Positions 34,421-53,627 of a DNA stretch of 64,000 bases are shown piece after piece. A program made the translations under genes and the position numbers. Positions within the stretch are counted from its first letter, which is position 1. Every line of letters starts with the position of its first letter. The notes beneath the pieces are model-generated. The model saw only the letters and a program-made list of their open reading frames with translations, was not told the origin of the DNA and made no database searches. The stretch comes from Halopseudomonas salegens (GTDB lineage: Bacteria > Pseudomonadota > Gammaproteobacteria > Pseudomonadales > Pseudomonadaceae), in assembly GCF_900105655.1 (NCBI RefSeq), contig NZ_LT629787.1, positions 3,472,001-3,536,000 of the forward strand, written 5' to 3'.

Positions 34421-34519
34421 GCAGTTCACATAAAAAAATTCAAACCAAACCAGACTAAAACAAAACCAACAAGGCTGTTGGGTTTGGCGTTTGCCATTTT
34501 TAAGCTATGGAGAGTGACA

Positions 34520-35830
34520 ATGAGAATCAGCATATTTGGTTTGGGGTATGTAGGTGCGGTGTGTGCGGGCTGCTTGTCCTCGCGTGGCCACCAGGTAATA
34601 GGTGTCGATGTATCTCAGGTGAAGATTGACCTGATAAATCAGGGCAAGTCGCCCATCGTCGAGCCTGGCCTGGAAGAATTGTTGCAACAAGGGTTGCAGC
34701 GCGGTCTGCTGAAAGGCAGTACCGAGGTCGAGCAGGCGGTGCTCGATACCGATATATCTTTTATCGCCGTAGGTACCCCGAGCCTGCGCAACGGCGACCT
34801 GGATCTGGGCTACATGACGATTGTCTGTGAGCAGATAGGCCAGGCCCTGCGTAACAAGAGCAAGCGGCATACCGTGGTGGTGCGCAGTACCGTGTTGCCG
34901 GGCACCGTGATGAAGGTGGTTATTCCCGCTCTCGAGAAAGCGTCCGGCAAGCAAGCCGGGACTGACTTCGGCGTGGCCGTGAATCCTGAGTTTCTGCGTG
35001 AAAGTACTGCCATCAAGGATTACGACTTTCCGGCCATGACAGTGATTGGCGAGCTGGACACCCAGTCCGGTGATCTGCTCGAGGAGCTGTACAGCGAACT
35101 TGATGCGCCGATTTTCCGCCGTCCGATTCCAGTGGCGGAAATGATCAAGTACACCTGCAATGTCTGGCATGCGGTCAAGGTGACCTTTGCCAACGAGATT
35201 GGCAACATTGCCAAGGCCTGCGGCGTAGATGGGCGGGAAGTCATGCAGATTGTCTGTGAAGACAAGAAACTGAATATCTCTTCCTATTATATGCGTCCCG
35301 GCTTTGCCTTTGGTGGCTCATGCCTGCCCAAGGATGTGCGAGCGCTGACCTATCGGGCCGGCCAAATGGACGTTGAACACCCGATGCTGGCAGGCGTCAT
35401 GGCCAGCAATCGGCACCAGGTACGGGCTGCCTTCGAGCTGCTGGAGAGTTATGACAAGCGCAAGGTCGGCATGCTGGGCCTGAGCTTCAAGGCCGGTACT
35501 GATGATTTGCGCGAAAGCCCGCTGGTCGAGTTGGCCGAAATGCTCATAGGCAAAGGCTTTGAACTGCGTATTTTCGACCAGAACGTTGAATATGCCCGCG
35601 TCTTCGGCGCCAACAAAGCCTATATAGAATCCAAAATACCCCATGTTTCCTCACTTTTGCACCCAGACCTGCAACAGGTAATCGAGGCCTCTGATGTCAT
35701 CGTGATCGGCAATGCTGATCCGGTGTTTGCCGAGATTGTCAAAAATCCCCCGCCCGGCAAACAGATCCTTGATCTGATTGGCTTCATGGACAAGCCCACC
35801 GAGGGCTTGCTGGAAGGCATTTGCTGGTAA
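34520..35830 (+). CDS. algD: GDP-mannose 6-dehydrogenase AlgD
   Basis: Oxidises GDP-mannose to GDP-mannuronate, the committed step of alginate synthesis. The 436-residue protein has the NAD-binding GLGYVGAVCAG at the N-terminus and VNPEFLRESTA in the middle. The catalytic Cys 268 in GGSCLPKDVRALTY falls at the same number as in P. aeruginosa AlgD. The C-terminal nucleotide-binding domain has GLSFKAGTDDLRESPLV. ATG 34520 follows GGAGAG. It leads the cluster, and a 142-bp gap with a small hairpin separates it from algA. UDP-glucose dehydrogenase is a related family, but the downstream algA/8/44 genes settle the assignment. Confidence 0.95.
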   Translation: MRISIFGLGYVGAVCAGCLSSRGHQVIGVDVSQVKIDLINQGKSPIVEPGLEELLQQGLQRGLLKGSTEVEQAVLDTDISFIAVGTPSLRNGDLDLGYMTIVCEQIGQALRNKSKRHTVVVRSTVLPGTVMKVVIPALEKASGKQAGTDFGVAVNPEFLRESTAIKDYDFPAMTVIGELDTQSGDLLEELYSELDAPIFRRPIPVAEMIKYTCNVWHAVKVTFANEIGNIAKACGVDGREVMQIVCEDKKLNISSYYMRPGFAFGGSCLPKDVRALTYRAGQMDVEHPMLAGVMASNRHQVRAAFELLESYDKRKVGMLGLSFKAGTDDLRESPLVELAEMLIGKGFELRIFDQNVEYARVFGANKAYIESKIPHVSSLLHPDLQQVIEASDVIVIGNADPVFAEIVKNPPPGKQILDLIGFMDKPTEGLLEGICW

Positions 35831-35845
35831 TGCTGGGCAAAGTAC

Positions 35846-35864: not shown

Positions 35865-35972
35865 TGCGTTGTCGAGGGATGCTTTGAACGGGACGCATAT
35901 CGATAAACCAATATCAGTTTGACAGTTTGTGCGCACCAGAAAGGCGGTGTGTAGCGGACAGGGAGAAATGAC

Positions 35973-37400
35973 ATGATTCCTCTGGTTCTTTCAGGTGGTA
36001 ACGGAACGCGTTTGTGGCCATTGTCGCGCAAACAGTTTCCCAAGCAGTTTCATGCTCTGACCGGTGACCTGACCCTTTTTCAGCAGACGCTGAAACGTCT
36101 GGAAGGCTGTGTGGATGAGGCGCCCATGGTGGTCTGCAATCACCAGCACCGTTTTGTGGTCAATGAGCAGTTGAGAGCACTTGGAATGGATGCCCACAGC
36201 ATCCTGCTTGAGCCATTTGGCCGCAATACTGCGCCAGCGGTGGCGCTGGCCGCCATGCAGTTGTTGGCCGACGGGCGTGACGAATTGATACTGGTGTTGC
36301 CGGCAGATCACCTGATCGCCGATGGCCACAGCTTCCGCGCGGCACTCAAATTGGCCAGTGAAGCAGCCGAGACCGGCGCCATGGTCCTGTTTGGTGTGCC
36401 GGCCCGGCATCCGGAAACCGGTTACGGTTACATCAAGGGTGGTCAGTCGGGCAGTGGCCCGGTCAAGGGGTCGGTAGGGGTTGAGGCGTTTGTCGAGAAA
36501 CCTGACCACGAACGGGCCAGGCAATACGTTGCCGATGGCGGCTACTACTGGAACAGCGGCATGTTTGTATTCCGCGCCAGTCGTTTCCTCGATGAATTGC
36601 GCGAGCACTCACCGGATATCTATGACACCTGTCAGCTGGCGCTGAGCTGCAGCAAGCATGATGGTCATCACATCGAGATTGATAGCCAGGCTTTTCAATG
36701 CTGCCCGGATGATTCCATCGATTACGCCGTGATGGAAAAAACCCGCTCGGCCTGTGTTGTCCCCCTGATTGCCGGTTGGACCGATGTTGGCTCATGGTCA
36801 GCCTTGTGGGAAGTGCAGCCCAAGGATGCCCAGGGCAATGTGGTGCGCGGGGATGTCACCCTGCAGGATTGCCGCAACAACTATGTGCACAGCACCAACA
36901 AGCTGGTCTCCTTGGTTGGGCTGGAAGATGTGGTGGTCGTGGAAACCAAGGATGCGGTAATGGTGGCACACAAGGATCGGGTGCAGGACATCAAACAAAC
37001 CGTCAGCGGCCTGGAAAAGCGGCAGCGACCGGAAGTCATGAACCACACTCAGGTTTACCGTCCCTGGGGCAGTTTTGACTCGGTTGATCTGGGCAGTCGT
37101 TTTCAGGTCAAGCGCATTACCGTGAAGCCGGGCGCACGTCTGTCGTTGCAGATGCATCATCACCGTGCCGAGCACTGGGTTGTGGTCTCGGGTACCGCGC
37201 AGGTGACCTGTGATGACAAGGTCTTTCTGTTGACCGAGAACCAGTCGACCTACATTCCGGTTGCCTCGGTGCACCGCCTGGCCAATCCGGGCAAGATCCC
37301 GCTGGAAATCATCGAAGTACAGTCCGGTGGCTATTTGGGCGAGGACGATATCGAGCGGTTTGAAGATGTCTATGGACGGACTGAGGCGTTGACGCAGTGA
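35973..37400 (+). CDS. algA: Bifunctional phosphomannose isomerase / mannose-1-phosphate guanylyltransferase AlgA
   Basis: Supplies GDP-mannose: converts fructose-6-phosphate to mannose-6-phosphate and later mannose-1-phosphate to GDP-mannose. It has 475 residues. The N-terminal nucleotidyltransferase starts with LSGGNGTRLWPLSRKQFPKQ and has FVEKPDHERA and DYAVMEKT. The C-terminal cupin isomerase has PWGSFDSVDLGSRFQVKRI and the metal ligands in LQMHHHRAEHW with later H in VHRLANPG. In classical Pseudomonas clusters algA is the last gene. Here it is second, after algD. Its stop overlaps the GTG of alg8 by 3 nt. Confidence 0.95.
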   Translation: MIPLVLSGGNGTRLWPLSRKQFPKQFHALTGDLTLFQQTLKRLEGCVDEAPMVVCNHQHRFVVNEQLRALGMDAHSILLEPFGRNTAPAVALAAMQLLADGRDELILVLPADHLIADGHSFRAALKLASEAAETGAMVLFGVPARHPETGYGYIKGGQSGSGPVKGSVGVEAFVEKPDHERARQYVADGGYYWNSGMFVFRASRFLDELREHSPDIYDTCQLALSCSKHDGHHIEIDSQAFQCCPDDSIDYAVMEKTRSACVVPLIAGWTDVGSWSALWEVQPKDAQGNVVRGDVTLQDCRNNYVHSTNKLVSLVGLEDVVVVETKDAVMVAHKDRVQDIKQTVSGLEKRQRPEVMNHTQVYRPWGSFDSVDLGSRFQVKRITVKPGARLSLQMHHHRAEHWVVVSGTAQVTCDDKVFLLTENQSTYIPVASVHRLANPGKIPLEIIEVQSGGYLGEDDIERFEDVYGRTEALTQ

Positions 37401-38959
37401 TACAAGAACCTGTTCGGGGTGTCGAGACGGTTGAGCTCGGCCCCCGTGATTTCATGGAAACAGAGTTTCACAAGCCGGGTTGGCGCAGCCTGTGCGGCTG
37501 GGCCTGTTTGTTTGCCCTGATTGCACTGGCCTCGAACATGGTCGATCCAGACCGTCTGGATCCGGCGCATCACACATTCATCTTTCTCATTGGCACCTTG
37601 GGGATCTGGCGGTACAGCAACGCCATTACCCATTATCTGCGCGGCATGTATTTTTTACATTGGCGTTTTCCGCAAATCCGTCGTGCGGTCGAGAAAATGG
37701 GTGATGCGGCCCTGCCTTCGCACATGTACATGGTGGTTACCAGCTTTCGTATTCCAACGGAAACCACTTTCAAGGTCTATCGCTCGGTGTTTCGCGAGCT
37801 GCAGCAATTGCCGGTCCCCAGCACCATTATTGCCTCGATCGTGGAAAAGGCGGACGAGAACTTCATCAAGCAGCTCATGCGTGAGGAGATCACGGACCGC
37901 GACGATATTCAGCTGGTCATAGTCCGGGCGCGAGGCACCGGTAAGCGTGATGGTCTGGCGCACGCCTTCCGGGCACTGTCCAGACGTATGCCGGTAGAGG
38001 ATGCGGTGGTCGGTGTTGTGGATGGCGATACCATCATGCTGCCCGGCTGCATTGAGCGGGCAGTAAAGCTGTTCGCTTATATGCCAAGCGTCGGCGGCGT
38101 GACCACCAACGAGTTCTGTGAGGTGGAAGGCGGCAGAATGATGCGCGAATGGCACGCCATGCGGTTTGTGCAGCGGCATATCAATATGTGCTCCATGTCA
38201 CTGTCCAGGCGGGTGCTGACGCTGACTGGGCGTCTGTCATTCTTTCGCGCCAGCATCATGACCGAGCCGGAGTTCATCAAGGATGTCGAGGCGGATTTTC
38301 TCGCGCATTGGCGACTGGGGCGTTTCCAGTTTCTGACCGGCGATGACAAATCATCCTGGTTCAGCTTGATGCGCGCCGGCTGGGATACCTTCTATGTTCC
38401 CGACAGCCATACCCTGACGGTGGAGCATCCACCGGACAACAACTTTTTCCGTGCCACGCGGCAATTGATGTACCGCTGGTATGGCAATTCCCTCAGGCAG
38501 AACTTCCGTGCCACCCGCGAGCTGGGTTGGTCACGTCTGGGGCTGTTCGCCAGTTATGTACTGTATGACCAACGGATATCCATGTGGACCTGTCTGGTGG
38601 GCCTGACCGGCTCCATCGTCGCGGGTTTGTTCCTGGGCATCCAGTATCTGCTGATTTACCTGTTCTGGATTCTGTTGTCGCGCACCCTGGTGTGCCTGTT
38701 GTTTTTCCTGACGCGGCATCCGGTGCATCCGCTGTATCCATTTGTTCTTTATTACAACCAGATAGTCGGGTCGTTAATGAAGGTGTACTCGATGTTCCAC
38801 ATGGATCAGCAAAGTTGGACCCGGCAAAAAACCACCTTGGGAAACAGTAATGATTTTGATGCGGGGCTGAACCGCTGGACCTCGAAAATGATGCTGGTGT
38901 CATCCATCGCCATTTTCTTCGCTGTCATTTCGGCGCTGTTGGATATTTCGCAACTCTGA
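37397..38959 (+). CDS. alg8: Alginate polymerase catalytic subunit Alg8
   Basis: Inner-membrane GT2 glycosyltransferase that polymerises mannuronate from GDP-mannuronate. The 520-residue protein has N-terminal membrane helices (about 30-75), a cytoplasmic GT-A domain (about 105-370) and further C-terminal helices (about 395-460 and 495-515). Motifs are VDGDT (D209, D211), TNEFCEVEGG, TGDDKSSW (D316-317) and the processivity-type RQLMYRWYGNSLRQN. GTG start at 37397 overlaps the algA stop. It is slightly longer than the ~494-residue P. aeruginosa protein, with a divergent N-terminus. It acts with Alg44. Confidence 0.94.
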   Translation: MIQEPVRGVETVELGPRDFMETEFHKPGWRSLCGWACLFALIALASNMVDPDRLDPAHHTFIFLIGTLGIWRYSNAITHYLRGMYFLHWRFPQIRRAVEKMGDAALPSHMYMVVTSFRIPTETTFKVYRSVFRELQQLPVPSTIIASIVEKADENFIKQLMREEITDRDDIQLVIVRARGTGKRDGLAHAFRALSRRMPVEDAVVGVVDGDTIMLPGCIERAVKLFAYMPSVGGVTTNEFCEVEGGRMMREWHAMRFVQRHINMCSMSLSRRVLTLTGRLSFFRASIMTEPEFIKDVEADFLAHWRLGRFQFLTGDDKSSWFSLMRAGWDTFYVPDSHTLTVEHPPDNNFFRATRQLMYRWYGNSLRQNFRATRELGWSRLGLFASYVLYDQRISMWTCLVGLTGSIVAGLFLGIQYLLIYLFWILLSRTLVCLLFFLTRHPVHPLYPFVLYYNQIVGSLMKVYSMFHMDQQSWTRQKTTLGNSNDFDAGLNRWTSKMMLVSSIAIFFAVISALLDISQL

Positions 38960-38982
38960 ATAATGGATTAGGGGCATAGGAC

Positions 38983-40146
38983 ATGAGTACATCAATTCTC
39001 AAAGAACAGGTTGTCCATGAGGCAATCGACGAGCGTCAGCATATTCGTACCCGCATACCGGCGCAGGCAAGACTGACGGGCAGCCAGGGCGAAAGTATTT
39101 CCTGTGATGTGCAGGATATCTCGCTGGGCGGCATCGGGCTGATCTATCCCGAGCCACTGAAACTGGGCAGCCTGTATGAGGTGGCCATCACTCTGGGCAT
39201 GAGCCGGGTTGACCTGAGCTTCAAGGCCAAGGTCAAGGTGGTATCTCAGAAAGGTGATCAGGTCGGCACCCAGTTTGTTGATCTGGACCCACAGAAAGCG
39301 GACATCCTGCGCTATCTCATTTCCTCCTATATGTCCGGTGAAATCGCTGATATCAATGGTCTGTTCAATGTCATGCAGCGGGAAAACTACATCAAGGAGC
39401 GCAAGCAGAAACACAGTACCCAGCGCACCCCGGGGGAAAGGCTGAAAGCTGCCGCGGGGTCGTTGCTGTTTCTGTTGATAGGTTTGCTGGCGCTGGCGTA
39501 TGTGCTGTTCAAGGCCTATGAACTGATGTTCCGCATTCCGGCCAGTCAGGCGCTGGTCAGCAGCAACAGCTTTATCGTCAGCATGCCGGAGAATGGCAAT
39601 GTGCGTTTTCTGGTTCCTGAAGGTCAGACCCAGGTCACCACCGGACAGCCGCTGGCAAGCATTTCCACTCAGCTTGGCACCAGCATCACCTCGCCAGCAG
39701 ATGTTGCCGCAATGATGGACCTGGCCCCGGGTGATATCGAAACATTGCTGGGGCAAACCAATATTGAAACGGTTATTTCCAGCCCCTGTGATTGCACGAT
39801 TTATTATCCGGGTAGCCATTTGAGTGGCTTTGGTTACAAGGGTGACCCACTGTTGCACCTGTTGCCGAATGACCAGCCGTTGTTCGTACAGGCCAGCGTA
39901 CCTTTCGAAAAGCTCGATACCTTGCGTCGCACCCAGCGCGTCAGCTTGCGCCCCTACGGCGCAGAGCAGGCGATCACCGGCCGCTTGGTCAGCGCTTCGA
40001 TCAATCAGCAAAACCAGATGGTATTGCTGAATATCGAACCGGAAACGGCCCTGTCCATCGAGGACTACCAAAAGCCCGTGTGGGTTGAGTTTGTCCTTGG
40101 GCTGCCCGGAATGCCGGGCTCGGACATCATCAGTGAATTGCGCTAG
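38983..40146 (+). CDS. alg44: Alginate co-polymerase Alg44 with PilZ domain
   Basis: c-di-GMP-binding partner of Alg8, 387 residues. An N-terminal PilZ domain has the RxxxR motif (Arg 18 and Arg 22 in RQHIR) and DISLGG (Asp 45, Ser 47, Gly 50). All the expected ligand residues are therefore present, and polymerisation should depend on c-di-GMP. A single membrane helix (about 155-180) follows, then a periplasmic membrane-fusion-like domain. It is co-directional with alg8 (23-nt gap) and algK (9-nt gap). Confidence 0.94.
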   Translation: MSTSILKEQVVHEAIDERQHIRTRIPAQARLTGSQGESISCDVQDISLGGIGLIYPEPLKLGSLYEVAITLGMSRVDLSFKAKVKVVSQKGDQVGTQFVDLDPQKADILRYLISSYMSGEIADINGLFNVMQRENYIKERKQKHSTQRTPGERLKAAAGSLLFLLIGLLALAYVLFKAYELMFRIPASQALVSSNSFIVSMPENGNVRFLVPEGQTQVTTGQPLASISTQLGTSITSPADVAAMMDLAPGDIETLLGQTNIETVISSPCDCTIYYPGSHLSGFGYKGDPLLHLLPNDQPLFVQASVPFEKLDTLRRTQRVSLRPYGAEQAITGRLVSASINQQNQMVLLNIEPETALSIEDYQKPVWVEFVLGLPGMPGSDIISELR

Positions 40147-40155
40147 GTAACGACT

Positions 40156-41586
40156 ATGCGCTTATTCAATCTGGTATTGCCGCTTGCCCTGGTGGGCGTA
40201 TTGCTGAGCTTGCCGGTCCAGGCCCGGGGCCTTGAACAGATTCGTTACGAGCTGTTCAAGAACCCGCAGGCAGATGTCGAGGCTGATTTGCGCAGGTTGG
40301 TGGCGCGTGGTGATCATGCGGCCATGCACCTGCTTGGCGATGTATTGTCCAAGGCAGAGGTTTCGGGTCACGGGGAAACCATATCACTGTTCAAGGCTGC
40401 GTTTGATCGTGGGCAGGGAGAGGTGACTGCGTTGGGGGCACTGGCCAGTCTCATGGAGCGCTATCCCTACTGGCGTGAGCAGTACCGGGAGTATTTTCGG
40501 CAGGCTTTGCAGCTTTATCCTCACGACCGAGACCGCCAGACACTGGCTGCAACCCTGAGTGTTTTTCTCACCTATCCGGAGCTCTTTGCAGCGGATGACG
40601 CCGAGCGTCTGATCGTACTACACCAACGCTCATGTCTGATCGATTGTGGCACTGAGCTGTATTGGGCGATTCTGGCCGAGCGCCAGGGTGATATGCAGAC
40701 CGCCGATCACCACTACCGCACAGCCATGTTTACCGATGCGCGTGCCGCCGAGCGTTACTACAACTTTCTGGGGCCGCAACAGGATCAGGTATTCCCCCGC
40801 GTCGCTCGTGAACTGGAGCCCCACGTTGAGGAGATGTCAGCTGATGCAATCAATCAGATCGGCAGGGTGCTCGATCGTATCAGTGATCTATACCGGATCG
40901 ATGAAGACGTTGCCGAGTGGAAACGGCGCGAGCAGGCGGAGTTGTTGGGTATCGAGCTGGAGCCCAGCCCACCCGGTTACGTAGCCGAGTCCGAGCGTTT
41001 GCGCCATGAAGCGCTGCGCTGGGCCGAGCATGCTGCAGCACGCAACTGGCTGCCGGCCCTGATCTCGCGATTCTACTTCATGACCTCGATGCCGGATAAT
41101 TTCAGCGGCGCCGAAGCCATGGAGCTGATTGATCGGATCAGCTTGCAGGACCCGGTCCGTGCCCGTTCATTGCGGGCCAGCGCCCTGATGGTGACCAACT
41201 GGAAAACACTCAATCCGGGCAAGGCGCATGAGTTGATTCAGGCACTGATTGCTGAAGGCAATACCGAAGGATATATGTTGCTTGCTGATCTCCATACCCG
41301 GGGCGGGCTGGATGAGCCGGATCAGCAAGCGGCGCTGAAGCTGTACCAGCAGATGGCCGAACGCGGTTCGGCGGCAGCCTACTACCGGCAGGCGGCATTG
41401 TTTACATCGGGTAGGGCGATCTGCCACGACCACACAAGAGCATACGCCTATGCAATGGTCGCCGTCGATTTTGGAACCGTGCGCGCGCGTGGCCTGATGC
41501 GTCAACTCGAATCGCATCTGAGTGAAGCCGAGAAGTCCAGAGCGCTGGCCATTCGCAACAGCATTATCAGGGAGTTCGGTATATGA
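40156..41586 (+). CDS. algK: Alginate export scaffold AlgK (TPR/Sel1 repeats), without lipobox
   Basis: Periplasmic TPR protein that joins the synthase to the AlgE porin, 476 residues. Helical TPR/Sel1-like repeats fill the chain; the clearest are at the C-terminus (LLADLHTRGGLDEPDQQAALKLYQQMA, YRQAALFTSGR). The N-terminus is a signal peptide (about 1-23, ending VQARG) that contains no cysteine. Classical AlgK is a lipoprotein, so this one is probably soluble or held only by protein contacts. The identification rests on position between alg44 and algE, length and repeats; sequence similarity is modest. The stop overlaps the algE start (ATGA). Confidence 0.82.
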   Translation: MRLFNLVLPLALVGVLLSLPVQARGLEQIRYELFKNPQADVEADLRRLVARGDHAAMHLLGDVLSKAEVSGHGETISLFKAAFDRGQGEVTALGALASLMERYPYWREQYREYFRQALQLYPHDRDRQTLAATLSVFLTYPELFAADDAERLIVLHQRSCLIDCGTELYWAILAERQGDMQTADHHYRTAMFTDARAAERYYNFLGPQQDQVFPRVARELEPHVEEMSADAINQIGRVLDRISDLYRIDEDVAEWKRREQAELLGIELEPSPPGYVAESERLRHEALRWAEHAAARNWLPALISRFYFMTSMPDNFSGAEAMELIDRISLQDPVRARSLRASALMVTNWKTLNPGKAHELIQALIAEGNTEGYMLLADLHTRGGLDEPDQQAALKLYQQMAERGSAAAYYRQAALFTSGRAICHDHTRAYAYAMVAVDFGTVRARGLMRQLESHLSEAEKSRALAIRNSIIREFGI

Positions 41587-42965
41587 AGGGATTATCACGC
41601 AGCCAGGTGATGGTTGCAGGGGTGCTGTTGGTCACTGGCTCCAGCGTCTGGGCACAGGATGAGGCTGCACGGCCTATGGGTGAGCTGCCGTTTGCCGACC
41701 AGGTCGTTACCTATGAAGTACGCAACAAGGTGACAGTTCAAGGCGGTATTGGACCTGAGGATTCGTTGCTTGGTGCAGATCGTGAAAGCTTCTACAGCTT
41801 GCGATATGAGCCGACGTTCATCTGGTACTCTCCGGAAAAACGCTGGCCACGCTGGCAGGTTTTCACCCGGGGTTGGCTGGCCTATGACTCAAGCTCATCC
41901 GTCACCCCCCTGCAGGAAGAAAACCAGGAAAGGGTAGAGGGCTTGAATGCGGAGCTGCGAGAGTTCTATGTACGCCGTAATCTGCTAGGTGATGACCCGC
42001 GTTTTGCCGTGACGGTAGGCCGTCAGCGTTTTGCCGACCGGCTGGGCATCTGGTGGGATGATACCTTCGAAGCCGTTCGTTTTGATTACACCGATAGTTA
42101 CTCACGCGGCTTTGCTGCGGCCGGACAAAAATTCTACTACTACAACTCGGACGTCAATCAGCTGGACCCCCGCGACAAGGATGTATTTTATGCCATGGGC
42201 GAGTATGCCTGGGGCTGGCAGAATCGGCATTGGCTCGGTGTGCGAATGCTGTACGAGCATGACTATTCCGGGCGCCAGGCGGACGATCCGGAAGACTTTA
42301 CCGGCATTCGCTATGGCCTGTTTGCCAGTGGTGACGGCATCCTCTCGCCCTGGCTCAGTGACTACCATGTTGAACTGGCTGCAGTGTACGGAGAGCGCGA
42401 GACACCCAGTCTCTCGGGTACGGAGTCTACCGACATCCGTGGTTGGGCCTTGTTGACCGAACTGGGCAAACGGTTTGATGACCGCCCCTGGAGCCCCAGA
42501 CTGGTCATGCGCGCCGGCTTGACCGACAAGCCGAAAGAAGAAGCTGACGGCTTCTATCTCAACCGTATCCAGTCGGACCGACTGATCAACCAGGAAACCT
42601 ATAGCACACGCCTGGTCAGTTCCTTCGTGCGCCTGGATATTCGCAACCTGGTGTATGTCGGTCTGGCCGCCGAATTGCAACCGACGGCAAGGACCAGCCT
42701 GGATGTGCGGGCCAGTCAGCTCTGGTTGCGCAATCGCGAGCGTGGTCTGCCGGTATTCACCAATACACTGCAGGATACCGGCAGCAAATCGGTTGGTCAG
42801 GTACTGGATCTGAACTACTACTGGCAAAGCTTTCCATTGGCCTACCGTGGACGGCACTTTGATATGAACACACTGCTCAGTGCCAGTTACTTTCGTGCGG
42901 GTTCAGCCACAGGAGATCTGGATGACGATTACCAGGTTTCCCTGGGCATCGTAATGCGTTACTGA
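41583..42965 (+). CDS. algE: Outer-membrane alginate porin AlgE
   Basis: Outer-membrane beta-barrel through which alginate leaves the cell, 460 residues including a signal peptide (about 1-24, SSVWAQ). The chain alternates polar and aromatic residues as in beta-strands and contains AlgE-like blocks: FYSLRYEPTFIWY, VTVGRQRFADRLGIWWDD, FEAVRFDY and GVRMLYEHDYSG. It ends in an aromatic (VMRY), as barrels do. It overlaps algK by 4 nt and precedes algI by 14 nt. Confidence 0.93.
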   Translation: MKGLSRSQVMVAGVLLVTGSSVWAQDEAARPMGELPFADQVVTYEVRNKVTVQGGIGPEDSLLGADRESFYSLRYEPTFIWYSPEKRWPRWQVFTRGWLAYDSSSSVTPLQEENQERVEGLNAELREFYVRRNLLGDDPRFAVTVGRQRFADRLGIWWDDTFEAVRFDYTDSYSRGFAAAGQKFYYYNSDVNQLDPRDKDVFYAMGEYAWGWQNRHWLGVRMLYEHDYSGRQADDPEDFTGIRYGLFASGDGILSPWLSDYHVELAAVYGERETPSLSGTESTDIRGWALLTELGKRFDDRPWSPRLVMRAGLTDKPKEEADGFYLNRIQSDRLINQETYSTRLVSSFVRLDIRNLVYVGLAAELQPTARTSLDVRASQLWLRNRERGLPVFTNTLQDTGSKSVGQVLDLNYYWQSFPLAYRGRHFDMNTLLSASYFRAGSATGDLDDDYQVSLGIVMRY

Positions 42966-42979
42966 CAGGGACGTCGGCC

Positions 42980-44407
42980 ATGGTCTTCAGCTCAAACATA
43001 TTCTTGTTCATGTTTCTGCCAGCCTTCCTGTTGCTGTATTACGTGGTGGGCAGCCGCTGGCGTTCACTGGTCATTGTGTTGGGCAGCTACCTGTTCTATT
43101 CCTGGTGGCGGCCGGATTTTCTGTTGTTGTTTGTCGGCATAACCTACTGGAATTACTGGTTCGGGCTGCGGATCAAGGCCAATCTGGATAGCGACAACAA
43201 ACAACGGGCGTTTCGCTGGCTGACCGTCGGGGTCATTGGCAACCTGGCGACCCTCGGTTACTTCAAATATGCCAATTTTGGCGTGGATGTCATAACTGCA
43301 GCGCTTGAGCCGCTGGGCATCAACACGTTCACCCTGGAGCGAATAATCCTGCCGCTGGGGATTTCGTTCTATGTGTTCCAGGCGATCAGTTACATTGTCG
43401 ATATTTATCGCAAACAGGCGGAGCCAACCCGCAGCCTGATTGATTTCGCAGCCTATATCGCGTTGTTTCCGCAGCTGATTGCCGGGCCTATTGTGCGCTA
43501 CAAGCTGATAGATCTGCAGCTCAAACAGCGAACACACTCCATGGAGCTGTTCTCGTTGGGCGTCAGCCGTTTCATGGTGGGTTTTATTCAAAAGGTATTG
43601 ATTGCTGACTCGCTGGCGCCGCTGAGCGCTATGTTCCTCAGTGAAAGCGAGCCGCAAGTCGTTGATGCCTGGTTGGGATTGCTGGCTTCCGTCGTGCAGC
43701 TGACTTTCGATTTCTCTGGATACAGCAATATGGCTATTGGTCTGGGGATGATGATGGGTTTCCGTTTTCCGGAAAACTTCAATCAGCCTTTTATGGCCCA
43801 GAGCATTACCGAGTTCTGGCAACGCTGGCACATGACCCTTGGAGACTTCTTGCGTGACTATGTGTATATGCCCATAGTCCGACGTCGCATGGCCGGCCCC
43901 TTGGTTGCTTTGGTCTATACCATGTTGTTGTCCGGTTTTTGGCATGGCGCAAGCTTCGCTTTCATTTTATGGGGCTTGTTTTTTGGTGTCACCATGGTGG
44001 TGGAACGACGCTTGGGGATAGCCACCAAAATCAATACGCCTTACAACGTCTGGCGCAATGCCCGCACTTTCTTGCTACTCAATTTGAGCATGCCGCTATT
44101 CCATACGGGTGATCTTCGCCACAGCCTGGATATTTATGCCGGTTTGTTCGGTTTCAATGGTCTGGGCAATCTTGAAGGCTATGTTTACGGAGCTTCTCTG
44201 ATGAGCATAAGTTTCCTGGTGGTGGCCCTGACCTGGTGGTTTTTTACCGGACGAATAAATCTGCGCTACTACGCAGGTGAGCAAGAGGGGTACTTCATGC
44301 AGCACGTGAGCAGTTTAAGTGCGCTGTTTCTTTGGGCCGGATTTGTGCTTGCACTCACCCGGCTGGCGGCCAATTCATTTTCACCGTTCCTGTATTTCCA
44401 GTTTTAG
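42980..44407 (+). CDS. algI: Alginate O-acetyltransferase AlgI (MBOAT)
   Basis: Multi-membrane acyl-transfer protein that brings acetyl groups to the periplasm, 475 residues. MBOAT features are FSSNIFLFMFLPAF, LPLGISFYVFQAISYIVD, FPQLIAGPIVRY and the invariant His in SGFWHGASF. That His is residue 322, the same number as the essential His of P. aeruginosa AlgI. The ATG at 42980 is 14 nt after algE. In the classical order algG, algX and algL lie between algE and algI; here they come later. Confidence 0.95.
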   Translation: MVFSSNIFLFMFLPAFLLLYYVVGSRWRSLVIVLGSYLFYSWWRPDFLLLFVGITYWNYWFGLRIKANLDSDNKQRAFRWLTVGVIGNLATLGYFKYANFGVDVITAALEPLGINTFTLERIILPLGISFYVFQAISYIVDIYRKQAEPTRSLIDFAAYIALFPQLIAGPIVRYKLIDLQLKQRTHSMELFSLGVSRFMVGFIQKVLIADSLAPLSAMFLSESEPQVVDAWLGLLASVVQLTFDFSGYSNMAIGLGMMMGFRFPENFNQPFMAQSITEFWQRWHMTLGDFLRDYVYMPIVRRRMAGPLVALVYTMLLSGFWHGASFAFILWGLFFGVTMVVERRLGIATKINTPYNVWRNARTFLLLNLSMPLFHTGDLRHSLDIYAGLFGFNGLGNLEGYVYGASLMSISFLVVALTWWFFTGRINLRYYAGEQEGYFMQHVSSLSALFLWAGFVLALTRLAANSFSPFLYFQF

Positions 44408-44416
44408 GGGGCCAAT

Positions 44417-45532
44417 ATGTTTCCTGTGATGCGTACGGCCAGCAAAGTTAACGGATATATCTTCATCGTGATGTTGGCGGGCATGCTGGTGTATTCGTTG
44501 CCTGCCGTATTTGGTTTTGCCCGAACCCAGACGCAGTCTGTCAGCCTGTTTGTCGATGGTCAGTTACTGCGGCAGTTCGAGCAGTTCTACGACAAGCGCT
44601 TTTTTCTGCGCGACTTGTCTGTTCGGCATTGGGCCAATCTGCAGTATCTGTTGTTCCGGGAAGGATCCAGTGGCGTGGTATTGGGGCGCGATGGCTGGTT
44701 GTTCACCAACCAGGAGTACCATTCGCCCAATGACTTGCAGAGCAATATTGACAACCAGTTGGCAGATATCGATCGGGTCAGGTTACAGCTGCAAGCGGCC
44801 GGCAAGCAGCTGATACTCCTTCCGGTGCCGATGAAACTGGATGTGTACCGGCAGCACGCGCTGCAGCAGCCTGATGCCAGACTGGTCAATCTGCATGACG
44901 AGTTTGTTGCTGACTTGCAGGCCAGGGGCGTGGCAGTCAGTCCGGTGCGGGCGGCCTTCCTCGAGCAGGGTACCGACGGGGCGCTTTTTGTCCGCAACGA
45001 CACACACTGGAGCCCGGCCGGTGCCCGCCTGGCGGCCAATGAACTGGCTCGTCAGTACCCGGACTTGCTGGGGCAAAGTGACTATGTCAGTGAAGCGGTG
45101 GGTGAAAAGGCCCTGAAGGGCGACCTGGTCAACTTTCTGAATTTTGACCCCCGGCTGGCCCCGGTGTTTTTCCGGACCGAACCGGTGGTGCTCTACGAAA
45201 CGCTGCAACGTCAGCAGAGCTTTGACGCTGCTGATCTGTTTGGTGAGGTCAAGCATAGCTTGCTGGTAGTGGGTACCAGTTACACCGCCATGGATGACTG
45301 GAACTTCGTCGGTTTTCTCAAACAGGCTCTGCAATCCGATCTGCTGGATGTTGCGCTGGAGGCGCGCGGACCTTTCCATGCCATGGATGTCTTCCTCGAC
45401 AGTGAGGCTTTCGCCAGCCCGGAACTGAAGACGGTCATCTGGGAGTTTCCCGTTCGAACCCTGCTGGCACACCGGACAAACCTGCGCGATTCAAGCCTGG
45501 ATCCACAGCCCACCCTTGCTACCGAGAGGTAA
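44417..45532 (+). CDS. algJ: Alginate O-acetyltransferase AlgJ
   Basis: Periplasmic SGNH-like transferase of the acetylation complex, membrane-anchored near residues 12-35, 371 residues. Catalytic signature: D-x-H in NDTHWSP (Asp 195, His 197) and the Ser in GTSYTA (Ser 288). GRDGWLFTNQEYH is a further AlgJ/AlgX marker. It lies 9 nt after algI and abuts algF. Confidence 0.94.
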   Translation: MFPVMRTASKVNGYIFIVMLAGMLVYSLPAVFGFARTQTQSVSLFVDGQLLRQFEQFYDKRFFLRDLSVRHWANLQYLLFREGSSGVVLGRDGWLFTNQEYHSPNDLQSNIDNQLADIDRVRLQLQAAGKQLILLPVPMKLDVYRQHALQQPDARLVNLHDEFVADLQARGVAVSPVRAAFLEQGTDGALFVRNDTHWSPAGARLAANELARQYPDLLGQSDYVSEAVGEKALKGDLVNFLNFDPRLAPVFFRTEPVVLYETLQRQQSFDAADLFGEVKHSLLVVGTSYTAMDDWNFVGFLKQALQSDLLDVALEARGPFHAMDVFLDSEAFASPELKTVIWEFPVRTLLAHRTNLRDSSLDPQPTLATER

Positions 45533-45537
45533 TGACA

Positions 45538-46185
45538 ATGAACAAGTGCGTATTTTTTTCCTGTGTTATGGCTTGCTGGATGCTGATCTTCAGCTCCCTG
45601 GCGACAGCGCAGGACGCCAATGCCGACCTCTATGATGCGGTGGCGCCGGCTGATTCTGCCTATATCCGCGTACTCAATCTGAGCGACATCAGCATCGAGG
45701 TCGGTTTGACCAGCAAAACCCGGTCCCAGCGCGTGCCGGCGGGGCAGTTCGGTGGTTACCGATTTGTGCCTCCGGGAAGTCATCGCATCAGTATCGGTGA
45801 AAAGACGCTGGAAGCCGAGCTGAAAGCCAATACCGCCAGCACCCTGATTTACCGCGACGGGCAGCTGCAGTTGCTTGACGATGCCTTCATCAACGAGCCA
45901 CGGCGGGCTCAGATCGCTTTTTACAACCTGACCGGGACAGACGCCACGCTGAAAACCGCAGATGGTCAGCACACAGTAGTCGATACCCTGGGGCAGAACC
46001 AGACCGGCAGCCGCATGGTCAACGAGGTCAAGATAGGTTTTGCTGCCTATCAGGGTGAGCGCCTGCTGGCCAGCTACGAAGAGCTGCTGCTGCGCAAGGG
46101 GCGTTCCTACAGTTATGCGTTGATGCCGGATGCCAGTGGTTATCGAGCCGTGATGTTGGCGAACAGCATTGACCCTTCTGAATAA
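45538..46185 (+). CDS. algF: Alginate acetylation adaptor AlgF
   Basis: Periplasmic helper of alginate acetylation with no known catalytic motif, 215 residues. A signal peptide (about 1-25, SSLATAQ) is followed by two similar beta-rich modules (AYIRVLNLSDISIEVGL and AQIAFYNLTGTDATLKT). ATG 45538 lies 8 nt behind GAGAGG; an ATG at 45532 overlapping the algJ stop is less well placed. Assignment comes from the module pattern and its place next to algJ. Confidence 0.9.
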   Translation: MNKCVFFSCVMACWMLIFSSLATAQDANADLYDAVAPADSAYIRVLNLSDISIEVGLTSKTRSQRVPAGQFGGYRFVPPGSHRISIGEKTLEAELKANTASTLIYRDGQLQLLDDAFINEPRRAQIAFYNLTGTDATLKTADGQHTVVDTLGQNQTGSRMVNEVKIGFAAYQGERLLASYEELLLRKGRSYSYALMPDASGYRAVMLANSIDPSE

Positions 46186-46210
46186 TGATCAGAATACAAG
46201 GATGACAACT

Positions 46211-47626
46211 GTGGTGAGTAAAGCCCTGTGTAGAACAGCTGTATTTCTGAGTCTGGGTTTCCTGGCCCAGACAGTACTGGCCAGCGAGCCGGCGGAAAAT
46301 TGTACCAGCCTGGATTGTCTGCTCTGCCCGGCAATGCAGGACCCGGACAGCTACCTTGAAGGCAACATGAAGCTGATCAATCAGCTGACCCCGGGCACTG
46401 ACCGCTGGTTGTTCCGTTCGGATGTCGACCTGACCAACGAATTTGGCATGCCAGCCCGTATGCAGCCAGAATTTGCCCGCCTGGTGGAAACCTTTTCAGC
46501 GCAAGGCACCCGTTTGGCGATGGTTGTGCAGCCAACCCGGGGTTTGATGCATCGCGACAAGATTCGGCCAGATTTTACCCAGGGTTTTGATTACGCGACA
46601 GCAGCCGACAATCTGCGCACTTACCTGCAACAAATGCGTGATGCCGGGGCCATAGTGCCGGACATCATGCAACTGGTGGAAAATCCGCCGGCTGAAGAGT
46701 ATTTCTTTCGCCGCGATCACCACTGGACGTCGGCTGGCGCCCGCAACACCGCACGATTGCTGGCCGATCACCTGATGCAGCAGCCGGTATATGCCGAATT
46801 GCCACGCAAAGCCTATCGGACTGAAACGGGCGTCACCCTGTTCAAGGACGGCACCCTGAATCTGGCGTTATCCAGTCTGTGCGGCAACAACTATGGCTTT
46901 CAGTACGTGCAAGGCTATCGAACAGTGCCCGAAATCAGTGATGCCAGCGCCTTGTTTGATGAGGAGCCGGTGCCCGAAGTGATTCTTGTCGGCACCAGTA
47001 ACTCGGCCACACGTGACGAGGAAAACAAGCAATTCAATTTTGATGGCTTCATCAAGGAGTTCCTCAGTGTTGATCTGCTCAACTTTGCCATGCCGGGTGC
47101 GGGTGAGTACGGCGCATTGATTGAGTATCTGCATTCGGACAGCTACTCGGCGGCTGCTCCGCCCAAATTGATCGTCTGGGAGTTACCGGCCAATTACCGA
47201 CTGGCTGACCCACTGATGTATCGCCAGTTGATTCCAGCCATCGAAGGTCAGTGCAGTAATGAGGCTGCGCTGCTCAGCAATCAACTGGAAAAAACCAGTG
47301 TGCAGGTCAACGAGCGTATCGAGTTACTGAGCAATACCGGGGATGAACGGCTTGAGATGGCGGGACATGACGTGTACCTGGATATTCGTTTGAGTAACGG
47401 CAATCTCAAGCATTTTTATCTGATCGTTTACTACGACAATGGCAAGCGAGACAAGGTGTGGATTCGCCGCGAGGCCATCGTCAGTGGCGGCCAGTACTAC
47501 CTGGAACTGAGCAAGGACCCTGAGTTTCGCAACGCCAACCTGTTGTCGGTGTTCATGGAGCCAACCGAAGCCTTGCAAGCGCCGGTCAACATGGAGGTGC
47601 GATTATGCGGGTCAAGAACCTATTGA
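46211..47626 (+). CDS. algX: Alginate O-acetyltransferase and export protein AlgX
   Basis: Periplasmic terminal acetyltransferase with an N-terminal SGNH-like domain and a C-terminal carbohydrate-binding module, about 471 residues. A signal peptide (~20 residues, TVLASEP) precedes a Cys-rich segment (CTSLDCLLC). Catalytic residues: D-x-H in RRDHHWTS (about Asp 169, His 171) and Ser in GTSNSA (about 263). The start is ambiguous: GTG 46211 lies 8 nt after AAGGA, while ATG 46202 overlaps that site. The 3' end overlaps algL by 22 nt, and a degraded copy of this 3' end sits before the second algL. Confidence 0.93.
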   Translation: MVSKALCRTAVFLSLGFLAQTVLASEPAENCTSLDCLLCPAMQDPDSYLEGNMKLINQLTPGTDRWLFRSDVDLTNEFGMPARMQPEFARLVETFSAQGTRLAMVVQPTRGLMHRDKIRPDFTQGFDYATAADNLRTYLQQMRDAGAIVPDIMQLVENPPAEEYFFRRDHHWTSAGARNTARLLADHLMQQPVYAELPRKAYRTETGVTLFKDGTLNLALSSLCGNNYGFQYVQGYRTVPEISDASALFDEEPVPEVILVGTSNSATRDEENKQFNFDGFIKEFLSVDLLNFAMPGAGEYGALIEYLHSDSYSAAAPPKLIVWELPANYRLADPLMYRQLIPAIEGQCSNEAALLSNQLEKTSVQVNERIELLSNTGDERLEMAGHDVYLDIRLSNGNLKHFYLIVYYDNGKRDKVWIRREAIVSGGQYYLELSKDPEFRNANLLSVFMEPTEALQAPVNMEVRLCGSRTY

Positions 47627-48717
47627 GCGTCAGTGGCGTGTTGCTGTGTGGCCTGAGCCTGGCATTGCCTGCCGCCGCGACCACGAGTATCTGGCCCGCT
47701 CGGGAAACTACCCAGTCGGCCATGATTGTCGACGACTACCTCACCCTGACTTGCCCCAGGACTCCGCCTGCGGCCTACACGGGTCACCTGCAACTGGACA
47801 GCAAATATGATCAGTCCGATGCCACCAAGACCACGCTGACTCCCCTCTCCCGGGATACGCGGCGGGTTCGAGATCACATCACCAGCTTCAACCGCGGACT
47901 GGTTGAAATCGTCAGCCGGTTTGAACGCGCTGACAATCCGATGGAGGCCAATATTGCCCTGGCTTGCCTGCATGTTTGGCTCGAAGCCTGGGCGCAAGGC
48001 AAAGCGTTGCTGAGTACCGATGTCAGCGGCACTGGCCGTGCCGTGCGCAAATGGTCCCTCGCTGCCATCAGCAGTAGCCTGCTCAAGGTCCGGGCCCTCA
48101 GCAACCAGCGTTACAGCTTGTCGAGCAGTCAGCTGAGCTGGTTGCAGCAGCTCAGCGAGGCGGTAATGCATGATTACGGTCCACGGCAAACCCTCGATTA
48201 CGCCTGGTTCAACAATCATGATTATTGGGCGGCCTGGGCGATCAGTGCTACCGGCATGCTGCTGGAGCGTGATGACTATATGCGCTTTTCGGATAAAACC
48301 TTGCGTCTGGCGCTGCAGCAGATGCGGCCGGGTGATGGGGATTACCGCTATCTGCCGCTGGAAATGGACCGCGGCAAGCTGGCGATTGAATACACCCATT
48401 ATGCATTGGTGCCATTGGTGTTCCTGGCTGAAGCTGCCGAGGTCAATGGCGCCAGGCTGACTGCGGACGAATGGACGCGCCTGGGGCAACTCGTCAATCT
48501 GGCTGCTTTGGGAGTACTGCGTGAGGAGTCGATAGCCGAATTGACCCATGCACAGAGTGAGGTTCCTGCGCACAAAATGATCTGGTTGCTGCCCTTTATG
48601 GCCAGGCAGCCTGAGCATGCTCTGGCGCAGGAACTGTTCGGAGAGTTGGGTAGCAGCATCGGCCACTATGGTCAGGTTGGCGGCGATTTGCGTCACTTAT
48701 ATCCGGGTATCGATTGA
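47605..48717 (+). CDS. algL: Alginate lyase AlgL, copy 1
   Basis: Periplasmic PL5 poly-mannuronate lyase that clears alginate misdirected to the periplasm, 370 residues. A signal peptide (about 1-25, LPAAATT) precedes an (alpha/alpha) toroid. Active-site markers: KYDQSD (Lys 67) and WFNNHDYWAAW (Asn 203, His 205), plus a conserved Arg/Tyr region, EMDRGKLAIEYTHYALVPL. It overlaps algX by 22 nt, with GGAGGTGCG as ribosome site. All catalytic positions are intact. A paralogue with similar sequence over its whole length is at 50657. Confidence 0.94.
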   Translation: MRVKNLLSVSGVLLCGLSLALPAAATTSIWPARETTQSAMIVDDYLTLTCPRTPPAAYTGHLQLDSKYDQSDATKTTLTPLSRDTRRVRDHITSFNRGLVEIVSRFERADNPMEANIALACLHVWLEAWAQGKALLSTDVSGTGRAVRKWSLAAISSSLLKVRALSNQRYSLSSSQLSWLQQLSEAVMHDYGPRQTLDYAWFNNHDYWAAWAISATGMLLERDDYMRFSDKTLRLALQQMRPGDGDYRYLPLEMDRGKLAIEYTHYALVPLVFLAEAAEVNGARLTADEWTRLGQLVNLAALGVLREESIAELTHAQSEVPAHKMIWLLPFMARQPEHALAQELFGELGSSIGHYGQVGGDLRHLYPGID

Positions 48718-48735
48718 TTTCGAGGGAATGACAGC

Positions 48736-50226
48736 ATGGGTGTTTCGAGTATGTTCAAGAGTGGCCTGAGTAGCATTATCGCCTGCATGTTGAGTACCTC
48801 AATGGCATTGGCCGAGGTCTCGACCCCCTTGGCAGTGGTGGACCCGGGTGCTCATCAGCAGGCACTGGAGAATTATCGTGAACTGACGGATCAGGCCATA
48901 CAGCTGAACCTGGCCATGCGCGCGGCACCTGCCGGTCGTGCACAGGCATCCTTGCAACCTATGTTTTCTGCCCAGCAGGGCAGTTGGCCCTTTGAACCCT
49001 TTGTGCACAATGGCTTGTTCCGCGCCATTGCCGGCTATCAGAATCAGCATCCGCGTGCTGTCGTCATTCGCGGCGGCACAATCAGTCTCGCGCAGCTCCA
49101 TGCACAGCTGGATAACGAGCGGGTTCTGTCACGCCACGACAATGGCTATCTGTTGCATTTTCCACTGATGATCGAGCCCGATGCGGCCCTGTTGGTGGAA
49201 AACACCCAGCTTCACCTCTACAGCAATTCGGGTACCGCCCTGATCAACCGGGGGCAACTGATTCTGCGTCAGGCTGGTTTGCATGGCTACAATGACGGCC
49301 AGCCGCACACCACAGATCGCCCATATCGCCCCTTTGTGATCAACTGGGCGGGCAGTCAATTGCAGATAGAGGGGGCCGAACTCAGTCGGTTGGGTTATAA
49401 CGAGCATCTTTCCCGAGGCATCAGCTCCGCCCGCAGCACTCAGCAGGGCAGCGATATTTCCCCGGCCAGGGTAATGGTCACTGATAGCCGCTTCAGCGAC
49501 ATGTCGGTTGGACTCGAGTTGAGTCAGGCGCTGGCCCGGGTCGAGACAAGCGCTTTTGAGGACATGCAGCAGTATGCGCTGGATCTGGCCGACAGCGGCT
49601 TTGTTCTGGCCCACAATCGTGTTGCCGGAGTCCGCAACAATAGCGGTATCCGGATCAGTGGGCGAAGCGATGGTCTGGTTGAGCACAACCGGGTTCTGAA
49701 AGCCAGCAAGAGCGCCATTGAGGTCAGCCTGCTGAACGGTAATATCATCGTGCGCAGCAATCAGATAGGCGGCAATTCGGGCTATGGTCTGCTGTTGCGC
49801 GATCTGTCGGCCAGCAGCCGGCTGGTGTTCGAGAACAACCTGATCGGCAATACGCAGCTGACCGCCATTGATGGCGGTGGTCTGCATCAGGGCATGCTGG
49901 TCAATAATCGCATCATGGGCACGCCGGAATATGCCATCAGTATTCGGAATGAGCAGCGGCTCAGCGGTCCCTTGCAATTGACCGGCAATCACCTTGAGCA
50001 GGTGGGCAAAGCCATGATCCGTATTGAAGGTGTCAACCACCTGGTGCTGGGAGAGAATCGCTACCTTGCGAATCCCCTGCAGCAGAACTTGCTGATTGGC
50101 GACCTGTTGCCATTTCAGGCCGAATTACTTGAGGCTACCCTGAAACAGGGTTGCCTGGTTGCGGTAGACATGGCCCAGCGCGCAGCACAAGACAGGCCGC
50201 CATTGGTGTGTCCGGGGCGTAGCTGA
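48736..50226 (+). CDS. AlgG-like right-handed beta-helix protein lacking the epimerase DPHD motif
   Basis: Periplasmic protein of 496 residues with signal peptide (about 1-26, SMALAEV). GGTISLAQLHAQL, RPFVINWAGSQLQIEGAELSRLGY and the repeats VLAHNRVAGVRNNSGIRISG / LVEHNRVLKAS align with AlgG, the mannuronan C5-epimerase. Where AlgG has the catalytic YGIDPHDRS, this protein reads YALDLADSG (residues 280-288): the Pro, the catalytic His and the DRS are gone. It may be an inactive scaffold that protects the polymer during export, or an enzyme with changed chemistry. It sits after algL, not after algE, and is followed by the duplicated algL. Assigning it to AlgG rests on partial alignment from memory. 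Confidence 0.75.
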   Translation: MGVSSMFKSGLSSIIACMLSTSMALAEVSTPLAVVDPGAHQQALENYRELTDQAIQLNLAMRAAPAGRAQASLQPMFSAQQGSWPFEPFVHNGLFRAIAGYQNQHPRAVVIRGGTISLAQLHAQLDNERVLSRHDNGYLLHFPLMIEPDAALLVENTQLHLYSNSGTALINRGQLILRQAGLHGYNDGQPHTTDRPYRPFVINWAGSQLQIEGAELSRLGYNEHLSRGISSARSTQQGSDISPARVMVTDSRFSDMSVGLELSQALARVETSAFEDMQQYALDLADSGFVLAHNRVAGVRNNSGIRISGRSDGLVEHNRVLKASKSAIEVSLLNGNIIVRSNQIGGNSGYGLLLRDLSASSRLVFENNLIGNTQLTAIDGGGLHQGMLVNNRIMGTPEYAISIRNEQRLSGPLQLTGNHLEQVGKAMIRIEGVNHLVLGENRYLANPLQQNLLIGDLLPFQAELLEATLKQGCLVAVDMAQRAAQDRPPLVCPGRS

Positions 50227-50519
50227 ACGCTGAGTCCCGTTCGATGCAGCGACGCCTGTCTGCCGTCGTCTGCATCCCCTCTTGCTCAATTGATTCCCTC
50301 CGTTTTATGCCTGGCCAGGATTACCCCCCCCCCTCGCACTGACATCCCCTGAAACGGTCCAGATTCTCGTTCGGTCTGCAGGTCACCGCGGCATAGTGGC
50401 GTTTTGATCCGTTGTATACCAGTCATCGGGATATTCAAAAACAATCAAAGAAAAATTTTTGACGTCAATATTTTTACGCTACTCTGTCTGTGCGCTAGCG
50501 AACAAAGGCTGAGGAAATC
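50227..50519. other. Gap between the AlgG-like gene and the algX remnant
   Basis: No gene is seen. The gap holds a run of ten C (50324-50333), then a very AT-rich stretch (about 50430-50475). A weak promoter-like pair, TTGACG (50459) and TACTCT (50480), is spaced 15 bp apart; it could drive algL copy 2 separately. Confidence 0.4.
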
Positions 50520-50678
50520 CCCCGGCCTGCATCGATAGCGGCTGATATTTCTTTAATTGAGCAAGGAACCCGAGTTTCGCAATACCAAGATGCAGTCGGT
50601 ATGCAAGGAGAGCCCAGCGAAGCGCTGCCAATCCTGCTACCCATAGAGGTAAGACTATGCCGACGAAGCACCCACTGA
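50520..50678 (+). pseudogene. Degraded 3' remnant of algX
   Basis: Translation shows SKEPEFRNTKMQSVC in one frame against SKDPEFRNANLLSVF at the end of intact AlgX (9 of 15 identical). It continues two bases shifted with EPSEALPILLPIEVRLC against EPTEALQAPVNMEVRLC. The frameshift is at about 50607-50614, where GGAGCC of algX has become GGAGAGCC. The homologous stop codon at 50676 keeps the same 22-nt overlap with the following algL as intact algX has with algL copy 1. Similarity starts near 50520-50530, so only ~50 codons survive. Confidence 0.88.
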
Positions 50679-51766
50679 CAGCTGGTGTCACCCTGCTGTT
50701 GTGCCTTGGAATTACACTGCCTGCCGCTGCGGCCAATACTATCTGGCCTGCCCGTGAAACCCCTCAATCTGCAATGATTGGCGATTACCGCGCGGTGAGC
50801 TGTCCGCTGCCCCCGCCTGAGCCCTACACGGGTCATCTCCAACTGGACAGCAAGTATGACCAGTCAGATGCGAGCAAAACCACATTAACTGATCTGTCGC
50901 ACGACACCCGGCTCATTCGTGAGCACATCAAGAGCTATCACAACGGACTGAATGAAGGCATCAGGCTCTTTGAAGGGGCCAGGAGTCCGGCGGAGGCCAA
51001 TATTGCCCTGGCCTGTCTGCACACCTGGCTGGAAAGCTGGGCCATGGAAGGGGCATTGTTGAGCTCCAACGTCAGTAGTACCGGGCGAGCCGAGCGAAAA
51101 TGGTCGCTGGCAGCCATCAGCGGTCGCCTGCTCAAACTCCAGGCCCTGACCAATAATCGCTATAGCCTGACAGCCGCCCAGCGAGACTGGTTACAGCAAC
51201 TCAGTGGAGCGGTGATGGACGACTATACCCCACGGCAAAGCCTCGATTTTGCCTGGTTCAATAATCATGACTATTGGGCCGCCTGGGCTGTCGCTGCTAC
51301 CGGCATGCTGGTTGACCGTAACGACTATCTGCATTGGTCGGCAAAAACCTTTGGCCTTGCGCTGAAGCAGATGCAGCCGGGCGTGGGTGACTATCGATAC
51401 CTGCCACTGGAGATGGACCGCGACAACCTGGCAATCGATTATCACCACTATGCACTGGTGCCGCTGGTGCTTATGACCCAAACCGCTGAGGCCCATGGCC
51501 GGAAACTGACGCGCGATGAATGGTCGCGGCTTGGGCAATTGGTCAATCTGGCTGCCTTGGGTGCACTGCGAGAGGAAGAAGTCACCGAGCTGACCAGTCG
51601 TCAGGATGAAGTGTCCCGTCACAAGATGGTCTGGTTATTGCCCTTTCTGTCGATGCAGCCCGACCATGCTCTGGCCTTGGAGTTGTACAGCAAGGTGAAG
51701 CAGGATGTCGGTTATTACGGCCAGGTAGGGGGCGATTTGCGCCCATTTTATCCGGATATCGATTGA
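50657..51766 (+). CDS. algL: Alginate lyase AlgL, copy 2 (segmental duplicate)
   Basis: Second PL5 lyase, 369 residues, with signal peptide (about 1-25) and the same active-site blocks (KYDQSD at Lys 66; FNNHDYWAAW at Asn 202, His 204; EMDRDNLAIDYHHYALVPL). It is alignable with copy 1 from end to end without gaps of note, but clearly diverged, with many conservative substitutions. It is intact and under apparent selection. AGAGGTAAG precedes the ATG. Similarity to copy 1 also covers the algX remnant upstream and ~12 bp after the stop (TGATTTCG). It may degrade a different block pattern or be secreted for dispersal; neither can be told from sequence. Confidence 0.93.
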   Translation: MPTKHPLTAGVTLLLCLGITLPAAAANTIWPARETPQSAMIGDYRAVSCPLPPPEPYTGHLQLDSKYDQSDASKTTLTDLSHDTRLIREHIKSYHNGLNEGIRLFEGARSPAEANIALACLHTWLESWAMEGALLSSNVSSTGRAERKWSLAAISGRLLKLQALTNNRYSLTAAQRDWLQQLSGAVMDDYTPRQSLDFAWFNNHDYWAAWAVAATGMLVDRNDYLHWSAKTFGLALKQMQPGVGDYRYLPLEMDRDNLAIDYHHYALVPLVLMTQTAEAHGRKLTRDEWSRLGQLVNLAALGALREEEVTELTSRQDEVSRHKMVWLLPFLSMQPDHALALELYSKVKQDVGYYGQVGGDLRPFYPDID

Positions 51767-51790
51767 TTTCGCGGATTTTACCGTCTTGGT

Positions 51791-51824
51791 GGCGCGGACC
51801 TGACGCAGTCGGCAGGTCCGTGCC
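51791..51824. terminator. Terminator-like hairpin ending the alginate cluster
   Basis: A 12-bp stem, GGCGCGGACCTG with CAGGTCCGTGCC (one G-T pair), encloses a 10-nt loop between convergent algL copy 2 and gmk. A U-tract is lacking, so rho-independence is uncertain. Confidence 0.6.
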
Positions 51825-51836
51825 GTAACCAGGTAT

Positions 51837-53627
<1,791 letters not shown>

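Follow-up and report, generated by a model that had tools for sequence, protein, structure and literature searches.

Known alginate-type systems and the locus in Halopseudomonas salegens

Sections of the review by Ertesvag (2015) assign roles in the alginate epimerase AlgG to the His of its DPHD motif, to Tyr314 and to an Arg; they also state that AlgG is needed in export, that AlgG mutants yield mannuronan, and that a natural producer of mannuronan was not yet known. A second alginate-type system is the epm cluster of Pseudomonas alkylphenolia. According to a passage of PMC5890197, citing Lee et al. 2014, this cluster makes an alginate-like polysaccharide, and a reference title in PMC5851621 presents the species as a platform for poly-beta-D-mannuronates. 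Here we analyse an alginate-type cluster in a 64,000-nucleotide stretch of Halopseudomonas salegens (contig NZ_LT629787.1, positions 3,472,001 to 3,536,000; hereafter the window), in particular its AlgG-like gene at 48736..50226. For the epm system, the 2014 work of Lee reportedly describes a 'substituted polymannuronic acid' and 11 open reading frames, with epmG and epmJ said to be needed for multicellular structures.

Two P. alkylphenolica loci (L099 and L102) share the genes of the window cluster from alg44 to the AlgG-like gene and their order, 44-K-E-I-J-F-X-L-G, and their AlgG-like protein is 51-52% identical to that of the window and falls in the same clade; a second PL5 lyase copy in the window is a difference. 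From the species and the description in PMC5890197, we infer that L099 and L102 represent the published epm cluster. The window cluster is very probably of this epm type, a known, little-studied cousin of the alginate cluster, so that the distinct alginate-like polymer system put forward in the original prediction is not new. In our literature search on the site and on EpmG, with most subscription papers outside its scope, the replacement of catalytic residues described below was not found; the Epm system itself is already known.

An AlgG fold without the AlgG catalytic residues

The gene and its central segment lie as follows.

48736..50226, forward strand: AlgG-like (EpmG-type) periplasmic beta-helix protein, 496 amino acids
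49567..49722, forward strand: QQYALDLAD segment and groove codons, residues 278-329 (Y280, D283, A285, R306, G309, K325, E329)

The original prediction had the frame exactly right, as well as the positions of YALDLADSG (residues 280-288) and RPFVINWAG (198-206). Judged from its sequence, the protein is a remote AlgG. The NCBIfam AlgG model (NF038177) scores it at 82.4 bits, short of the equivalog cut-off of 700, and its Pfam matches are Beta_helix and NosD. With E up to 1 allowed, the PDB gives four sequence matches, all of them AlgG crystal structures; the solved AlgG 4nk6 is matched at E 3e-17 with 20% identity. The predicted model has the right-handed beta-helix fold of AlgG, and the match includes the N-terminal part (model residues 41-445 on 69-492 of 4nk6). 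As with AlgG, the gene of this protein is linked to a cluster that encodes an alginate-type synthase and export proteins.

The catalytic residues, by contrast, differ. YALDLAD aligns under YGIDPHD of 4nk6, and a profile-profile alignment (HHalign, probability 99.5) gives the same register at this segment; given the agreement of the two methods, AlgG H319 corresponds to A285. This bears out the proposal that DPHD is lost between flanks that can still be aligned. A second loss had not been noticed earlier: Arg345 of AlgG aligns with G309. Y314 and D317 are kept, as Y280 and D283. With both His319, the base, and Arg345, which neutralises the carboxylate, missing, this protein should be unable to work by the AlgG mechanism.

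We compared these sites across relatives, taking 120 listed of the 123 proteins from a protein search together with 88 fetched loci. Of these 208 sequences, 27 were dropped as identical across the last 430 residues, leaving 181 distinct relatives. The comparison set of 30 canonical AlgGs, biased to top-scoring Pseudomonas AlgGs, was selected by YGIDPHD; all 30 highest-scoring loci had the motif, and none was dropped. At the H319 site the relatives carry Arg (77), Gln (23), Ser (19), Gly (16) or His (7), among others, and at the R345 site Gly (174), Asp (4), Asn (2) or Ala (1) and never Arg, whereas the canonical AlgGs have His and Arg in 30/30; the loss is thus no chance event. Y280 is kept in 178 and D283 in all 181 relatives. 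DPHD and the Arg are likewise present in five further AlgGs, taken from other families of the order. A sequencing or annotation slip is ruled out, since the altered site recurs throughout the relatives. The seven relatives with His are not revertants, because Arg345 is absent in every one of them. A relocated catalytic His was likewise rejected: across the 120-protein alignment, H105 is the one His that never varies, and it lies in the N-terminal part.

Invariant charged residues in the groove

Besides D283, the 181 relatives have invariant residues of their own: R306 (181), K325 (181) and E329 (180), with S303 (180), Q278 (174) and Q279 (174) nearly as constant. In the canonical AlgGs the positions of R306, K325 and E329 hold Ile, Leu and Val, each in 30/30. 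Predicted strands 280-285, 305-309 and 326-333 of the model succeed one another rung by rung; secondary structure and a 23-residue period place D283, R306 and E329 as a putative ladder on the sheet where AlgG has its DPHD. Past residue 309 the alignment register is less certain than at the YALDLAD segment: MAFFT sets K325 and E329 opposite AlgG L362 and V366, while HHalign slips one rung and sets them opposite Thr residues. In neither register does an AlgG charge stand opposite K325 or E329. An alternative His/Asp pair in the same place had been considered from the outset, and this is half answered: no new invariant His was found in the groove, but an invariant Asp-Arg-Lys-Glu set is present, so the chemistry may have changed. 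The set may bind, stabilise or catalyse.

Depth and spread of the family

In a midpoint-rooted tree, the Epm-type proteins and AlgG are split by long branches with 100/100 support, and P0030 and L099 (P. alkylphenolica) fall on the Epm side. This tree has 50 rows, 35 Epm-type (20 of them drawn at random) and 15 AlgG, and the program warns of long-branch effects.

Within the genus sample the AlgG-like gene occurs in 5 of 37 genomes, and canonical AlgG in none. The family sample of 248 genomes has it in 19, each scoring at least 351 bits, and the match that follows drops to 104 bits. A second family sample (198 genomes) contains 14 with an Epm-type match, 7 of which also have a canonical AlgG. 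Across the order, the family profile matches 24/390 genomes, comprising three clear members, canonical AlgGs and six distant members. DPHD is absent in all six of the latter, and each of their genomes has one match and no canonical AlgG among the top three candidates scored per genome. In three distant members from one other family (L163-L165, loci L186-L188), the alginate-type cluster has its AlgG-like gene on the opposite strand, without DPHD and with most of the quartet missing.

Co-occurrence was assessed for 36 of 69 named loci, representing 35 genomes. In 28/35, both P. alkylphenolica strains included, a canonical AlgG above cut-off accompanies the Epm-type cluster. The seven without one are HGW-Gammaproteobacteria-11, WN033, P. 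neustonica, Marinobacterium lutimaris, P. guryensis, P. mangrovi and Shewanella jiangmenensis. The genome of the window, one contig and 100% complete, resembles these seven. Our search of it for a second epimerase-like protein found none above cut-off, with no separate query for an AlgE-type A-module. Genome-wide, the AlgG model and NosD match once each and Beta_helix twice, once above cut-off; the second Beta_helix match is a 180-amino-acid frame at 17.6 bits against a cut-off of 25.9.

Two side observations concern individual genomes. Pseudomonas mangrovi carries two diverged Epm-type AlgG copies (L144, L148); since a second algD-algA-alg8-44-K start directly follows one of them, there are two tandem clusters. 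At G191:C1:2177078-2178502, an Epm-type AlgG gene is interrupted by an in-frame TAG.

A probable guide protein or a possible other enzyme

We consider it probable that this is an Epm-type cluster whose AlgG-fold protein guides the polymer and lacks the AlgG mechanism, the product of the cluster being a non-epimerised, O-acetylated mannuronan. A GDP-mannuronate-type precursor would be polymerised by the Alg8/Alg44 pair, the polymer O-acetylated by AlgI/J/F/X and exported via AlgK/AlgE, while the PL5 lyase would clear strayed polymer. The AlgG-type subunit would keep its beta-helix and its place in the same assembly as polymer guide and shield. Its groove would have been rebuilt long ago around Asp283-Arg306-Lys325-Glu329, which we take as polymer-binding. 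The original prediction stands in part: both a mannuronan without epimerisation and an altered groove are plausible, and the system itself is not news.

Several points weigh against this reading. The product chemistry is drawn from the reference title in PMC5851621 and from what the 2014 work of Lee reportedly describes. The quartet is not essential to the wider family, because it is whole in one of the six distant members (L160); L161 retains D and R, L162 D and K, and L163-L165 the Arg alone. Residue 308 is Arg in 131/181 relatives (S308 in the window protein), and a one-residue shift would set it against Arg345. Finally, to judge by its conservation, the quartet exceeds the needs of a passive scaffold and could be catalytic.

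The last point leads to the first alternative, that the rebuilt groove serves as an active site for non-epimerase chemistry. Examples would be a lyase or hydrolase that sets chain length, or an enzyme whose substrate is a substituted mannuronan. The near-complete conservation of the four residues, the predicted position of D283, R306 and E329 in corresponding strands of three consecutive rungs on the DPHD sheet, and the further fold matches of the model to beta-helix lyases and polygalacturonases (RbmB 9ozl; 3jur) all speak for it. In PL6 lyases, Lys/Arg pairs are catalytic. However, an Arg flanked by Asp and Glu on adjacent rungs may simply form a salt-bridge ladder, function does not follow from a fold match, and the cluster already has a PL5 lyase; we regard this alternative as unlikely. 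Somewhat less doubtful, but still rather unlikely, is the broader proposal that EpmG is a separate enzyme family whose Asp-Arg-Lys-Glu active site modifies mannuronan at export, and that hosts without another epimerase, H. salegens among them, are natural makers of guluronate-free alginate.

A further alternative, which we rate as more unlikely still, retains the C5-epimerase: R306 would be the neutraliser and K325 the base, with Y280, conserved from AlgG, on the proton donor side. It agrees with the AlgG fold and with the retention of Y280 and D283, but both H319 and R345 are lost, and the poly-mannuronate title for P. alkylphenolia in PMC5851621 would oppose bulk epimerisation there. That the gene is a decaying, functionless AlgG copy, as its missing catalytic residues might suggest, is hardly credible in view of its open frame, fixed cluster position, own invariant residues and deep split from AlgG, and the ratio of nonsynonymous to synonymous substitution rates (dN/dS) of 0.096 rules out a pseudogene.

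Given the exchange of the AlgG catalytic residues for another conserved set, H. salegens may well make an unconverted alginate-like polymer. With its alginate-type cluster and no AlgG other than a non-canonical one, this genome is a direct test case for a natural mannuronan producer. The EpmG family would represent a natural separation of the two roles of AlgG, export scaffold and epimerase, and it supplies a defined residue set for mutation. Non-epimerised acetylated mannuronan also has a practical use as an epimerase substrate.

The gene cluster in the window

The remaining genes of the cluster, all on the forward strand, are the following.

34478..35830, forward strand: AlgD-like nucleotide-sugar dehydrogenase (ATG for MRISIF at 34520)
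35973..37400, forward strand: AlgA-like GMP/PMI (TIGR01479, 724 bits)
37397..38959, forward strand: Alg8-like GT2 synthase
38983..40146, forward strand: Alg44-like PilZ and HlyD co-polymerase
40156..41586, forward strand: AlgK-like TPR protein (NCBIfam AlgK 41.5 bits, far under the cut-off of 700)
41583..42965, forward strand: AlgE-like export porin (PF13372, 44.3 bits)
42980..44407, forward strand: AlgI-like MBOAT acyltransferase
44417..45532, forward strand: AlgJ-like SGNH protein (aligned with AlgJ 4o8v at the DTHW and GTSY segments)
45532..46185, forward strand: AlgF (PF11182)
46169..47626, forward strand: AlgX-like acetyltransferase, C-terminal CBM (aligned with AlgX 4knc at the DHHW and GTSNS segments)
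47605..48717, forward strand: AlgL-like PL5 lyase (aligns with AlgL)
50657..51766, forward strand: second PL5 lyase (protein 65% identical to the first)

All frames are open with the expected domains, as had been claimed, with the AlgK-like and AlgE-like proteins only weakly recognised; the AlgJ- and AlgX-like proteins retain the segments DxHW and GTS that their relatives of solved structure have. The cluster had been called a complete alginate cluster. This holds for gene content, the window having the same set of enzyme types as the alg operon, but not for gene order. The canonical order is D-8-44-K-E-G-X-L-I-J-F-A, with algG adjoining algE, whereas the window reads 8-44-K-E-I-J-F-X-L-G, with the AlgG-like gene last. 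By tblastn with the window genes, this order recurs in 19/19 family loci and 69/69 named loci agree with it; 65 extend back to alg44, the other four ending early at a contig end or at the fetched range, and the two sets share some genomes. In many loci, AlgD- and AlgA-like genes precede the cluster.

An Rfam scan of 33000-53000 gave no match, and a promoter and terminator scan behind the AlgG-like gene gave nothing above chance. Whereas AlgK is a lipoprotein, the predicted N-terminus of the AlgK-like protein (40156-41586) shows no lipobox Cys. The second PL5 gene stands behind a remnant of the algX tail (about 50548-50610, within 50227-51766), as if from tandem duplication of the algX tail and algL; in the fetched sets such a second copy occurs in the window and HGW-Gammaproteobacteria-11 (L084/L085) only. 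The cluster is flanked by spoT with a small rpoZ-like frame on one side (31557-34148) and by gmk on the other (51837-52808). In L066, L067 and L084, gmk adjoins algD rather than the far cluster end, and therefore the cluster or its surroundings are inverted there.
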